The notes beneath the pieces were generated by a model that made no database searches, was not told the DNA's origin, and saw only the letters and a list, made by a program, of their open reading frames with translations. DNA of 34,268 bases from a virus. Positions 7,959 to 18,467 of the stretch are shown one piece after another. The position numbers and the translations under genes are program-made. Within the stretch, counting starts at the first letter, position 1. Every line of letters begins with the position of its first letter. The stretch is from IMG/VR virus record IMGVR_UViG_3300042691_004200, positions 1 to 34,268 of that record; one strand, written 5' to 3'.

Positions 7959-7977
7959 ATTGACCTAGCTGGTCAAT
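7959..7977. repeat. 7-bp inverted repeat, operator-like
   Basis: ATTGACC, 5 central bases, then GGTCAAT, overlapping the helicase stop codon and lying about 30 bases before the SSB start. It could be an operator or a small hairpin. No clear -10 follows it. Confidence 0.35.
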
Positions 7978-9197
7978 TCTTCAACTCTAGCGCATGCGCC
8001 ATTGAAAATCAGGTCTAGCTCACCTGTGATGCCGTGTCGGTTTTTGGCCACATCCATGATGAATCCGCTCATCTCAAAATCACGGTCTGTTTGCTTTTTG
8101 TGGCGGCTCAATAACATGACCACATCTGCATCCTGCTCAATGGCTCCAGAATCTCTGAGGTCTGAGAGCTGTGGCATTTTGTCCAAGCGGGCCTCACTGT
8201 TTCGGTTGAGCTGTGCTAGTGCAATCACTGGGACCTCAAAATCCCTGGCAATGGTTTTCAGGCTCACGCTGAAATCTGTGATGGCCTCATAGCGTTTGCG
8301 GCCTGGCACGGTGTCACGGATTAGACCCAGATAGTCCACCACAATTGCACCCAGTCCACCGTTTTGCTGGATGGTGCGTGCGTGGGCTCTGATGTCATTG
8401 ATGGTCTGGCCACCCTTATCCACAATCACCAGATTGCTTTGAGCCAGTTCATCCTTGGCCTCTGCTAGGCGTTTCCAATCAAACTCACTGAGCTTGCCTT
8501 TTTCAATGTTGCCAAGATAGACACTGGCGGTCATGGAATAGAGGCGGTTTAGCAATTCATTTTTGCTCATCTCCAAGCTGTGGAATGAGACTGCCTTTGA
8601 CTTGCTCAGGTGGTATGCAATCTGGAGGCCCACCACGGTCTTACCAACACCTGGCCTAGCTCCAATCACATAGAGCCCGCCTGGTCTGAATCCCTGGATT
8701 GCTTCATTCAAGATTTTCCACGGGCTGGAGAGATAGTGGCGTGGCTGTCCCAGTGTGTCTAGGTGGCTCACTGCAAGATGGCTGATGTATTCAATTCGCC
8801 CGTCTGTGCGCTTTTCTGCCATTGCGCCAAACTCACGGCGAGCATTGTCAATCAGAACATCTAGGTCATCCGTCTCTGACTTATTCAGGATTCTTTGAGC
8901 GGTGAAATTTAGATTGCGGCGGATTGCGTTGTCTCTAACCAGTGAGGCGTAATAGCCAACATTTTCCCAGGCTGGTGTTTCGCTCTGCCAGTCCCAAACT
9001 TTGAGAGCGTGCTCAGGCATCTTTGCCGCCACGGTGATGGCATCAATCGGCTCATGCTGAGAGCGCATTGAGCGCAATGTCTCATAGACCCTGGCTAACT
9101 TTGGGTCATTGAACTCATCTGCGGTGAGGGTAAGCTCATCAATTGCTCTGCCGTGGCTGAGAATGATTGAGCCAATGATTGCGGTCTCTGGGTTCAT
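7965..9197 (-). CDS. dnaB: DnaB-type replicative helicase
   Basis: A 410-aa hexameric helicase that unwinds the fork 5' to 3'. An N-terminal DnaB domain (ETAIIGSIILSHG) precedes the RecA-like ATPase core: Walker A GARPGVGKT (179-187), the SLEMS motif (207-211), Walker B AIVVD (284-288), and the sensor ALAQLNR (327-332) with SDLRDSGAIEQDAD after it. GGAGG sits 5 bases before the ATG, which directly follows the stop of the initiator gene. A separate loader is not seen; the upstream winged-helix protein may load it, as for lambda O/P or replisome organizers. Confidence 0.95.
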   Translation of the reverse strand: MNPETAIIGSIILSHGRAIDELTLTADEFNDPKLARVYETLRSMRSQHEPIDAITVAAKMPEHALKVWDWQSETPAWENVGYYASLVRDNAIRRNLNFTAQRILNKSETDDLDVLIDNARREFGAMAEKRTDGRIEYISHLAVSHLDTLGQPRHYLSSPWKILNEAIQGFRPGGLYVIGARPGVGKTVVGLQIAYHLSKSKAVSFHSLEMSKNELLNRLYSMTASVYLGNIEKGKLSEFDWKRLAEAKDELAQSNLVIVDKGGQTINDIRAHARTIQQNGGLGAIVVDYLGLIRDTVPGRKRYEAITDFSVSLKTIARDFEVPVIALAQLNRNSEARLDKMPQLSDLRDSGAIEQDADVVMLLSRHKKQTDRDFEMSGFIMDVAKNRHGITGELDLIFNGACARVEELTS

Positions 9198-9863
9198 TTA
9201 GTCCTCCAACTTGAATTTGTGCTTAGTCCTTGGCGCATCTTTTGGCTTAGAGTATTCAGCCGCTTTGCGAATCCAATTTCGCCACGCCGCTTGCCAATCT
9301 TTTTTCATTGCGTTTTTGCTAGTTGAGGCCCAATAGTCTTTGAACTTATGTGTCTCTAGCTTGATGTCCACCCACGGGAAATGTTCAATCATGACCTTGA
9401 CTGAATCCTCACTAGGTGCAAAATCTTTGGGGAGGCGGCTTATGGTTCTATTTAGGTTAAGTTTAGGTTCTGGTGAAACGGGCTTCACCCCTGAATGACT
9501 CTGGATTTCACCCCTGATGACCTCAGATTTCACCCCTGATGCACCAGATTTCACCCCTGTTTTGTGTTGCAGACTGCCATCACAATCCGCTGGGCACTGC
9601 ACCAAAATCCAGTAGCGGTTGGTTTTGTATTGCTGGTCACCAAATCCACCCTGCTCATCAATCTCAATCTCACCCATGTCTGCCAGCTCTCGGATGATTT
9701 GCTGGACTCTGCGCTCAGTCACCCTGGCATAGTTGGCAAGGGTGGCAATTGATGGCCATGCGCCATTGTCTGAATGATGGTTTGCAATACCCCACATGAC
9801 TAGCTTGGCTGTGCCCTCAGCCTGGCTGTGGTGTAGAACTGCGGTGGTTGCTTCAATGCTCAT
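9198..9863 (-). CDS. Winged-helix replication initiator (replisome organizer-like)
   Basis: A 221-aa protein. Residues about 20-85 form a winged helix (SIATLANYARVTERRVQQIIRE and the wing after it). A linker of about residues 88-140 follows, then a C-terminal domain with KDYWASTSK...KKDWQAAWRNWIRKA, typical of phage replisome organizers and DnaD/DnaT-like ends. It would bind origin iterons and recruit the helicase encoded next. Four 11-bp DNA repeats lie within the linker-coding part (9484-9560). AAGGA is 10 bases before the ATG, and an extended -10 promoter lies ~40 bases upstream. Confidence 0.8.
   Translation of the reverse strand: MSIEATTAVLHHSQAEGTAKLVMWGIANHHSDNGAWPSIATLANYARVTERRVQQIIRELADMGEIEIDEQGGFGDQQYKTNRYWILVQCPADCDGSLQHKTGVKSGASGVKSEVIRGEIQSHSGVKPVSPEPKLNLNRTISRLPKDFAPSEDSVKVMIEHFPWVDIKLETHKFKDYWASTSKNAMKKDWQAAWRNWIRKAAEYSKPKDAPRTKHKFKLED
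9441..9480. other. A/T-rich stretch next to the iterons, possible unwinding element
   Basis: This segment inside the initiator gene is richer in A/T than its surroundings and holds TTTAGGTT twice, 11 bases apart. It directly abuts the iteron array, the arrangement seen in the lambda origin. A role in strand opening is inference. Confidence 0.4.
9484..9560. repeat. Four-copy iteron array, putative replication origin
   Basis: TTCACCCCTGA begins at 9484, 9507 and 9529, with TTCACCCCTGT at 9550; copies 2-4 share a longer ATTTCACCCCTG core. Start-to-start spacing is 23, 22 and 21 bases, about two helical turns. The spacing is not a multiple of three, so copy 2 is read in a different frame from the others (RGEI versus GVK) while the DNA is conserved. 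This points to selection on DNA, as for iterons bound by the protein encoded here. Confidence 0.75.
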
Positions 9864-12460: not shown

Positions 12461-12649
12461 ATGCGGTATGAGAGACCAGATGGCATTTTTGAAATTGAAT
12501 GTGACCAATGCCACATGCGATTGACTGAGGTGATTGTGGGCTCTATGCCCAGGGATTGGTTCACTGCCAGGACCGTTGCAATTCTAAATGGATGGGTGGC
12601 AGACCTAGAGGGCCAGATTTGTGTGGGGTGCTGGAATGTTTCTAAATAG
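12461..12649 (+). CDS. 62-aa zinc-ribbon protein
   Basis: Starts MRYERPDGIFEIECDQC with AGAGGA 9 bases upstream of the ATG. Two Cys pairs, C14-x2-C17 and C54-x2-C57, bracket the protein and should bind one zinc ion. It is one of two plus-strand genes and overlaps the WhiB start by up to 29 bases. Small zinc proteins next to whiB are plausible transcription factors or partners; the function is inferred from context only. The frame is open further upstream but without support. Confidence 0.65.
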   Translation: MRYERPDGIFEIECDQCHMRLTEVIVGSMPRDWFTARTVAILNGWVADLEGQICVGCWNVSK

Positions 12650-12932
12650 TAGAGCACGGCAAAAATGGGAGGCACTACATGAGGCAATTGAGAACGCCCC
12701 AATTGTGGTGCCATGTCAAAACACTGACCCAGAACTTTGGTTTGGTGACTCCAACCAGAATGGTTATACGGGCAATGAGCGTGGTTTCAATTACTCTGAT
12801 GCCCGCAAACTCTGTAACAAATGCCCAGTGCGCCAACAATGCTTGGAATACGCCTTGGCAAACCGTGAGGAATTTGGCATGTGGGGTGGGCTCTCGCCTC
12901 AACAAAGAAACAAAATCCTGAGGGGGCAATAA
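12621..12932 (+). CDS. whiB: WhiB-family Fe-S transcription regulator
   Basis: A 103-aa protein with the four WhiB cysteines: C32, then C65-x2-C68-x5-C74 (LCNKCPVRQQC), which hold a 4Fe-4S cluster. The GMWGG turn follows (86-90), then a basic C-terminus. WhiB proteins bind the primary sigma factor and are found only in Actinobacteria and their phages, where the phage WhiB can alter host transcription. The start is GTG at 12621 (GAGGG 8 bases before) or ATG at 12636. It is transcribed against the rest of the genome, from the promoter opposite the early operon. Confidence 0.9.
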   Translation: MWGAGMFLNSRARQKWEALHEAIENAPIVVPCQNTDPELWFGDSNQNGYTGNERGFNYSDARKLCNKCPVRQQCLEYALANREEFGMWGGLSPQQRNKILRGQ

Positions 12933-17084: not shown

Positions 17085-18467
17085 TTAGCCTAGGTCACCA
17101 ATGAGGCGATACTGTGATGCGGCTACCTTTACCAGTGTAGCCCCTGAATACTGTGCGGCTGTTTTCAACTTGCCGCCCTTGGATTGAATTGTGATTCCTG
17201 ATGCTGTGAATGTAATTTGTCCAGAACCATCCTGGATAAAATCAATGCGGTCACCAATGTTCAAAACATCTGGGACCGTGAATGTTCTGCCAGTTGAGCC
17301 AGTCAGTCTAATTAGCGTAAAGGCATCACCGCTCACCAAAGTATAGTTTGCAGATTTGTCAGAAACGGTCTGGGTTAGTGTTGCATCTGCACCCGCTGGA
17401 CCCTGTGGACCAGTTGCGCCCTGGGGTCCAGTTGCACCAGTTGCTCCAGTTTCACCCTGAGGACCCTGAGGCCCAGTTGCGCCCTGTGGCCCCTGAGGAC
17501 CTGTGTCACCAGTGTCACCTTTAGGACCCTGCAAACCAGTCTCACCCTGTGGACCTTGTGGACCCGTCTCACCCTGCAAACCTTGTGGCCCCTGAGGGCC
17601 TGTTTCACCTTGTGGACCTTGTGCTCCAGTCTCGCCTTGTGGCCCCTGGATTCCCTGTGGACCTTGCTCGCCCTGTGGGCCTTGGATTCCCTGTGGGCCA
17701 ATCTCACCCTGGATACCCTGAGAGCCCTGAGGACCTGTTTCGCCCTGCGGCCCCTGAGCACCTGTCGCACCAGTTGGACCAACTTCACCCTGTGGCCCCT
17801 GCGGTCCAGTTGGACCTTGGATGCCTTGGATTCCCTGCGGGCCCTGAGGTCCTGTGGCACCTTGCAAAGCTAGTGGAAACCAGACTGATGATTCAAGACT
17901 TGGAACATCTCCAGGTGCGGCATCATCTGATGCAAACCATGATGTGCTGTTATGGAAAACGGCATCATTGTTTTTGTAGTCAGTAGATGATGACCAATTA
18001 CCACGCCATGTGATTCCAGTTGCACCCGCTGGGCCCTGTGGGCCAGTGTCACCCTTTGGGCCCTGTGGCCCTTGGATTCCCTGCATGCCTCTTGGACCAG
18101 TTGGGCCTGTCGCTCCAGCCTCACCAGGCAAACCCTGTGGACCCTGTGAACCCTGTGGACCCGTGGGGCCAACCTGACCCCTAGGTCCCTGTGACCCCTG
18201 GGGTCCCTGTGGACCCTGGATGCCCTGGTCACCTTTGTCACCTTTGTCACCCTTTGCGCCACGCTCACCAGTGAATCCTCTTGGACCATCTGGGCCTACT
18301 GGACCCTGAGCCCCCTGTGGGCCTGTGGGTCCTGCGGGTCCTACTGGGCCCTGGTCTCCACGCTCACCTTTGATAGTGGCTGGCTGAAAATAGTTGAGCT
18401 GATTACTGGGGTCTGTGACTGTAATCCCACCACTGGTGGAATCTGGGTCATTGATGATGATGGGCAT
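17085..18467 (-). CDS. Collagen-like tail fibre
   Basis: A 460-aa fibre. A short N-terminal anchor (1-32) is followed by Gly-X-Y triplets (33-150), a non-collagen insert (152-200) with [20 protein letters not shown] resembling a carbohydrate-binding fold, more Gly-X-Y triplets (203-360), and a C-terminal beta-rich module (361-460). Triplets should form a trimeric triple helix; the insert and end may bind glycans on the host surface. The C-terminal module has a relative in the next gene. It starts just after the stop of the small Ig-like gene (TAAATG). Confidence 0.85.
17388..17861 (-). repeat. Gly-X-Y coding repeats, distal block
   Basis: Codes residues 203-360 of the collagen-like fibre as unbroken triplets, mostly GPQ, GIQ, GET and GAT. 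The repeats are imperfect at DNA level, but near-identical 9-mers such as CCTTGTGG (plus strand) recur, so length variation by recombination is likely. Confidence 0.8.
18018..18371 (-). repeat. Gly-X-Y coding repeats, proximal block
   Basis: Codes residues 33-150 of the collagen-like fibre. Contains charged triplets near the start ([18 protein letters not shown]) and GPQ-type triplets later, separated from the distal block by the non-collagen insert. Confidence 0.8.

Follow-up and report, generated by a model that had tools for sequence, protein, structure and literature searches.

A putative replication origin with phased GGGGTGA iterons inside the initiator gene of a tailed phage

We propose that positions 9440-9560 of the window, i.e. 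the whole 34,268-bp stretch of viral DNA that was analysed, form the replication origin of a tailed phage and that this origin is embedded in the gene of its own initiator. We put the probability of this reading at about 0.9. It rests on DNA conservation, on the pairing of a repeated word with one protein domain and on residue-base rules, all of which, together with the architecture of the locus, were shown by comparing the sequences of related loci. By analogy with lambda and P22 we infer initiator binding, DNA opening and helicase loading at this site. The record contains portal, capsid, terminase, tail and WhiB genes and was therefore assigned to a tailed phage; the gene content also suggests an actinobacterial host.

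A repeat array in the linker-coding part of the initiator gene

The gene at 9198-9863 (minus strand) encodes a predicted replication initiator of 221 aa. Its N-terminus matches HTH_36 (PF13730, E 5.6e-9) and passes the family cut-off, and the protein matches PHROG 8540, named 'replication initiation O-like' (E 1.5e-27). In the AlphaFold2 model, for which the alignment rows were the window protein and related loci, residues 1-90 (9594-9863, minus strand) form the winged-helix DNA-binding domain with pLDDT mostly >90. The recognition helix comprises residues 50-62 (9678-9716, minus strand) and includes residue 55, a Gln encoded at 9699-9701 (minus strand), which predicts iteron base +7 by covariation. 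The linker of residues 103-138 is disordered (pLDDT <50) and lies between the winged helix and a three-helix C-terminal domain (residues 150-205; 9249-9416, minus strand) that putatively contacts the helicase or single-stranded DNA. This domain matches PHROGs 1408 and 3992, both 'replication initiation / primosomal protein'. Moreover, a relative with the same C-terminus as the window protein showed a weak match to DnaT (PF17948, E 0.015, below the cut-off). The family names and this sub-threshold match suggest that the C-terminal domain may act on the helicase. The next gene after the initiator encodes a DnaB-type replicative helicase (7965-9197, minus strand; PF03796, E 5e-75), and a RusA resolvase gene lies beyond it. 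Searches of the PDB with the initiator by sequence and by fold returned generic winged helices only, none below E 0.001, and the DnaB protein gave no match when used as a probe in IMG/VR.

The DNA that encodes the linker corresponds approximately to the iterons plus an A/T-rich element. The word TTCACCCCTG occurs in four exact plus-strand copies starting at 9484, 9507, 9529 and 9550, with start-to-start distances of 23, 22 and 21 bp; the earlier note, which had listed these copies as about two helical turns apart, was correct. On the coding strand the word reads CAGGGGTGAA. In the direction of the gene, the first iteron (9550-9560) is TTCACCCCTGT (coding strand ACAGGGGTGAA), and the second (9529-9539), the third (9507-9517) and the last (9484-9494), which is nearest to the A/T-rich element, are each TTCACCCCTGA. 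The copies at 9484, 9529 and 9550 have a common codon frame and the copy at 9507 is shifted by one, in agreement with the earlier observation that one copy lies in a different frame.

No further copy of TTCACCCCTG was present on either strand of the 34,268-bp record, and all four lie within the initiator gene. A repeat frequent across the genome had been named as a possible refutation of the origin; we found it confined to the array. The count expected from dinucleotide shuffles was 0.07, and four copies did not occur in any of 100 shuffles. Besides, when codons were shuffled synonymously within the gene, keeping protein and codon usage, four copies of any 7- to 10-mer were obtained in 0 of 300 shuffles for each word length. 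With two mismatches allowed, 24 repeats were found compared with 19 expected, which is the chance level, and therefore only exact copies were counted. The same pipeline recovered the annotated iterons of lambda O (20, 24 and 23 bp apart) and, for P22, found repeats within the origin annotated in gene 18. A mark in the GC skew near 9.5 kb, which had been suggested as a check, did not appear as a clear turn; the skew is uninformative here because almost all genes of the phage lie on one strand.

Conservation of the DNA in relatives

At identical amino acids, the window and three relatives with 65-74% protein identity used the same codon in 97% of cases within linker residues 102-141 vs 46-51% elsewhere (p 2e-6 to 7e-8). 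This bears out the claim that the DNA and not the peptide is conserved. Relatives that are only ~43% identical retain GGGGTGA words with spacings of 21, 22 and 23 bp, and their penultimate copy lies in a different frame from the others. A peptide kept without the DNA spacing had been put forward as a second possible refutation, and these distant relatives keep both the spacing and the words.

The repetition in the DNA might also be a by-product of a linker that needs an SGVK motif, and three of the four copies do encode (S/T)GVK in one frame. However, the third copy in gene direction encodes IRGE in another frame, the DNA repeat is lost in codon-preserving shuffles, frozen synonymous sites are found in the linker only, and the AACC repeats of the A/T-rich element lie in three frames. 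A repeated peptide as the cause is hardly credible, and the codon shuffles and frame differences led us to rule it out.

The A/T-rich element and its AACC repeats

The A/T-rich stretch that had been noticed next to the repeats was located at 9440-9479 (minus strand), where the 40-bp window with the highest A+T content of the gene is found. This putative DNA unwinding element is weaker, with 67.5% A+T, than the elements of lambda and P22 with 80%. A first AACC repeat (9466-9469) lies inside it, a second (9455-9458) follows at a distance of 11 bp in a different reading frame, and a third (9444-9447), 11 bp from the second, is in the third frame (all minus strand). Among the clusters, the AACC(A/G)T repeats start two helical turns beyond the last iteron and are 11-12 bp apart. 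Their offsets from the last GGGG (+22/23, +34 and +45/46) carry on the helical phase of the iterons by one turn per step. Codon-preserving shuffles gave 49 +/- 4 AACC words and 12 +/- 3 pairs at 10-13 bp; the observed numbers were 101 and 55, respectively. The exact word is absent from 13 of 52 clusters, and GATCCGTC-like variants replace it in some of the clusters fetched later.

It is quite possible, if on balance doubtful, that the array is the origin while the AACC triad has no part in unwinding or initiator contact and instead serves a host factor or the start of a primer, or arises in part from the EP/TI-rich linker peptide. Such a role would fit a signal that is weaker than that of the iterons, given the 13 of 52 clusters without the word and the codon-preserving shuffles that retain about half of the count, whereas the pairs at 10-13 bp at nearly five times the shuffled number, the offsets that extend the iteron phase and the different frames of the repeats argue against it. 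We favour the reading that the AACC(A/G)T repeats, in the same helical phase and in steps of 11-12 bp, are probably secondary initiator or single-strand contact sites.

At 9472-9489 lies a perfect inverted repeat of 18 bp, GGTGAA-acgggc-TTCACC; the earlier note had mentioned neither this repeat nor the AACC triad nor the DnaB gene. One of its arms is the last iteron, which gives a two-arm site like those of lambda. Among the clusters, a second arm at the same offset with at least 5/6 matches accompanied the last copy in 18/52 vs 12/146 of the other copies. Two-arm iterons were also seen in the relatives L322, L327, L344 and L350 (GGTGAC-N6-GTCACC, GGGGCGAC-N-GCGTCAC and CCGGTGAA-N-TTCACC); by eye, these four agree with the residue-55 rule described below.

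The iterons and the DNA-binding domain

IMG/VR was scanned, blind to protein, for three GGGGTGA words spaced 21-23 bp. In 96 of the 119 loci with this pattern the array lies within an ORF of the HTH_36 initiator family, 88 in sense direction. Across all ORFs of the pattern-derived loci, viral and bacterial together, the family HMM matched 97 of 478 with an array vs 1 of 10,454 without one. Starting from the protein, at least three internal GGGGTG words were present in 22 of 28 clusters, which came from the alignment-based protein search and from annotated phages. In the pooled set of 52 array-bearing clusters, 127 of the 146 iteron intervals measured 21-23 bp, and the two spacings nearest the A/T-rich element were 22 and then 23 bp in 25 of the clusters. 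Bacterial genomes searched with the initiator protein yielded no relative. The pattern scan of bacterial genomes gave 117 loci, mostly unrelated repeats, with about six in the HTH_36 initiator family.

Some GGGGTGA arrays lie outside the initiator family (L058, L140, L151, L153, L042, L072 and L121; e.g. GGGGTGAACTTTTTCCACGG and GGGGTGACTGCTCCG repeats) and are possibly other replication or partition sites. An array orientation opposite to that of the initiator gene was observed in L095, L097, L110, L126, L129, L132 and L165.

Domain swaps were informative about the partner of the word. Four loci (L019-L022) have only the C-terminus in common with the window protein (65-71%) and differ in the N-terminal domain, and their iterons are ACCGTTGACGG with a period of 15 bp. 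Conversely, locus L275 combines the window-type DNA-binding domain with another C-terminus and has retained GGGGTGAA iterons. As judged from these loci, the iterons travel with the DNA-binding domain of the initiator. L019 (3929-4591) and L020-L022 also have A/T-rich TAAGAATA-like repeats, likewise ~15 bp apart, and the periods of iterons and unwinding element seem to change together.

Covariation points to individual residues. In 49 of 50 clusters residue 55 predicts the base that follows GGGGTGA (+7), Arg going with C and any other residue with A; the runner-up among the protein columns accounts for 39 of 50. All 18 new clusters, i.e. later-fetched loci with <80% identity to the training set, obeyed the rule (Fisher p 2e-5). 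In the window protein, Gln55 is found together with GGGGTGAA in all four copies, as the rule expects. The antisense arrays, which had been left out of rule-making, conform in 6 of 7 cases, L095 being the exception. A second rule connects wing residue 78 with the base before GGGG (-1): Gln with A in 20/21 and Asp with C in 10/10 clusters, and the five new clusters with Gln or Asp all agree. Arg-G, Gln-A and Asp-C are standard protein-DNA contacts. Both rules are correlational. On the best tree, which is short of columns and poorly resolved, at least 8 changes are needed for base +7 and 9 for residue 55; strongly supported branches force one change only, and therefore the 8-9 joint changes are not all certain. 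Related pairs such as Galaxy (gp42; Asn and A) and Kepler (gp46; Arg and C) differ in both positions.

Winged helices are often transcription regulators. The array could therefore be an autoregulatory operator at which the protein limits transcription of its own gene while replication starts elsewhere, and the covariation does lend good, if indirect, support to binding by the gene's own product. Yet the array lies in the middle of the gene and not at a promoter, and no further exact copy of TTCACCCCTG is found upstream of the gene. Moreover, the family is named for replication initiation, the DnaB gene comes next, and the A/T-rich element with its phased AACC repeats is kept. We regard an operator as very unlikely and retain the reading as an origin. 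This reading, already given in the earlier note, is supported in that the DNA constraint, the winged helix, the site in the linker, the A/T-rich element and the DnaB gene match an origin of the lambda/P22 type.

Comparison with known origins

The architecture of the window resembles that of lambda, where four iterons about two turns apart (20, 24 and 23 bp) also lie within the initiator gene in differing frames. In both, the iterons are situated between the parts encoding the DNA-binding and the C-terminal domains and are followed by an A/T-rich element. The iterons of lambda are inverted repeats of ~18 bp (PMC7466680), and so is the last iteron of the window. In contrast, the lambda word is ATCCCTCAAAACGAGGGA and that of the window GGGGTGA, the other copies in the window are mainly one-armed, and the AACC repeats at one turn are unlike lambda. 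In the window no separate loader like lambda P was identified, and the DnaB is encoded by the phage. In vitro, lambda requires only the two iterons adjoining the A/T-rich tract (PMC7466680).

The proposed likeness to the linker site of lambda O stood in part. The array does encode the linker that follows the winged helix, but the protein does not belong to PF04492 (Phage_rep_O), for which no match was obtained up to E 1 while the controls lambda O and P22 gp18 matched at 6e-36 and 7e-38. Nor was sequence similarity to lambda O detectable by BLASTP and profile comparison; the PHROG profiles of the two proteins overlap partially, with mostly weak matches for the window protein. P22 has an initiator gene 18 with internal iterons followed by gene 12 for a DnaB-type helicase, which is the gene layout of the window, so that with an initiator beside its own DnaB the window appears more like P22 than lambda. 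Differences are that P22 gp18 belongs to PF04492 and that its repeats are TCGGTAAAA. On this comparison, we take the window initiator to work like lambda O and P22 gp18 and to belong to the HTH_36 initiators, not to PF04492.

Actinophage initiators of the HTH_36 family with matches to PHROGs 8540, 1032 and 270, such as those of the Arthrobacter phages Galaxy and Kepler, have the domain family in common with the window. Like the window, they show GGGGTG(A) words at 22 bp in the gene and AACC repeats; unlike it, they have another C-terminal domain, a methyltransferase as the next gene and no adjoining DnaB. The 15-kb Arthrobacter phages Decurro, Arielagos and Swenson (L026, L027 and L034) carry the window-type DNA-binding domain with a cysteine-rich, zinc-ribbon-like C-terminus, and in the initiator genes of these Decurro-like relatives no GGGGTGA array was found.

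As a rule, the iterons of plasmids are located outside the rep gene. The iteron plasmids RK2, P1, F and R6K resemble the window in having helically phased direct repeats beside an A/T-rich region (PMC5043065), but their initiator families differ from that of the window. Plasmid iterons bind initiator monomers (PMC5043065).

Proposed mechanism and significance

In the model that we propose, the winged-helix domain would bind each CAGGGGTGAA word. The base pair after GGGGTGA would be read by residue 55 in the recognition helix, and the base before GGGG by residue 78 in the wing. Since the words are 21-23 bp, i.e. two helical turns, apart, the bound initiators would all sit on the same face of the helix, bending or wrapping the DNA, and the resulting strain would open the adjoining A/T-rich element. 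The C-terminal domain could then pass the opened strand to the DnaB from the next gene, as in the P22 layout. In lambda, binding of the initiator to phased iterons leads to bending of the DNA and to opening of the A/T-rich element, and O also contacts the opened strand (PMC7466680, PMC5043065).

Beyond the window, we tentatively suggest, at somewhat less than even odds, that one modular origin code is common to a wide range of HTH_36 initiators, from phages of Actinobacteria as well as of other bacteria. It would consist of GGGGTGA-type iterons two turns apart, a last copy with a lambda-like inverted repeat and AACC(A/G)T repeats in phase at one-turn steps. Specificity would come from residue 55 (+7) and residue 78 (-1), and the AACC triad would act as a sequence-specific opening path. 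Given the phasing of the AACC repeats, the regions in which phage origins unwind may hold sequence instructions besides A/T-richness.

We found no description of GGGGTGA iterons or of the residue-base code in the open-access papers searched. To our knowledge, apart from the lambdoid phages and a handful of Gram-positive models, most phages have no mapped origin. In the case of mycobacteriophage RepA, it was only suggested that the origin is located within the gene or immediately upstream of it, and no repeats were found (PMC7157519). Here, a sequence word locates the candidate origin, ties it to the protein predicted to read it and predicts the key residues of this reader; thus, sequence alone may suffice to locate origins in uncultured phages. 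The code is directly testable in the cultured Arthrobacter phages Galaxy (Asn, A) and Kepler (Arg, C), which represent the two cases of the residue-55 rule.

Two further genes of the record were noted. The WhiB transcription factor gene (12621-12932, plus strand; PF02467, E 2e-19) is among the few plus-strand genes, and a gene for a collagen-repeat protein (17085-18467, minus strand; PF01391, E 4.5e-45) sits among the tail genes.
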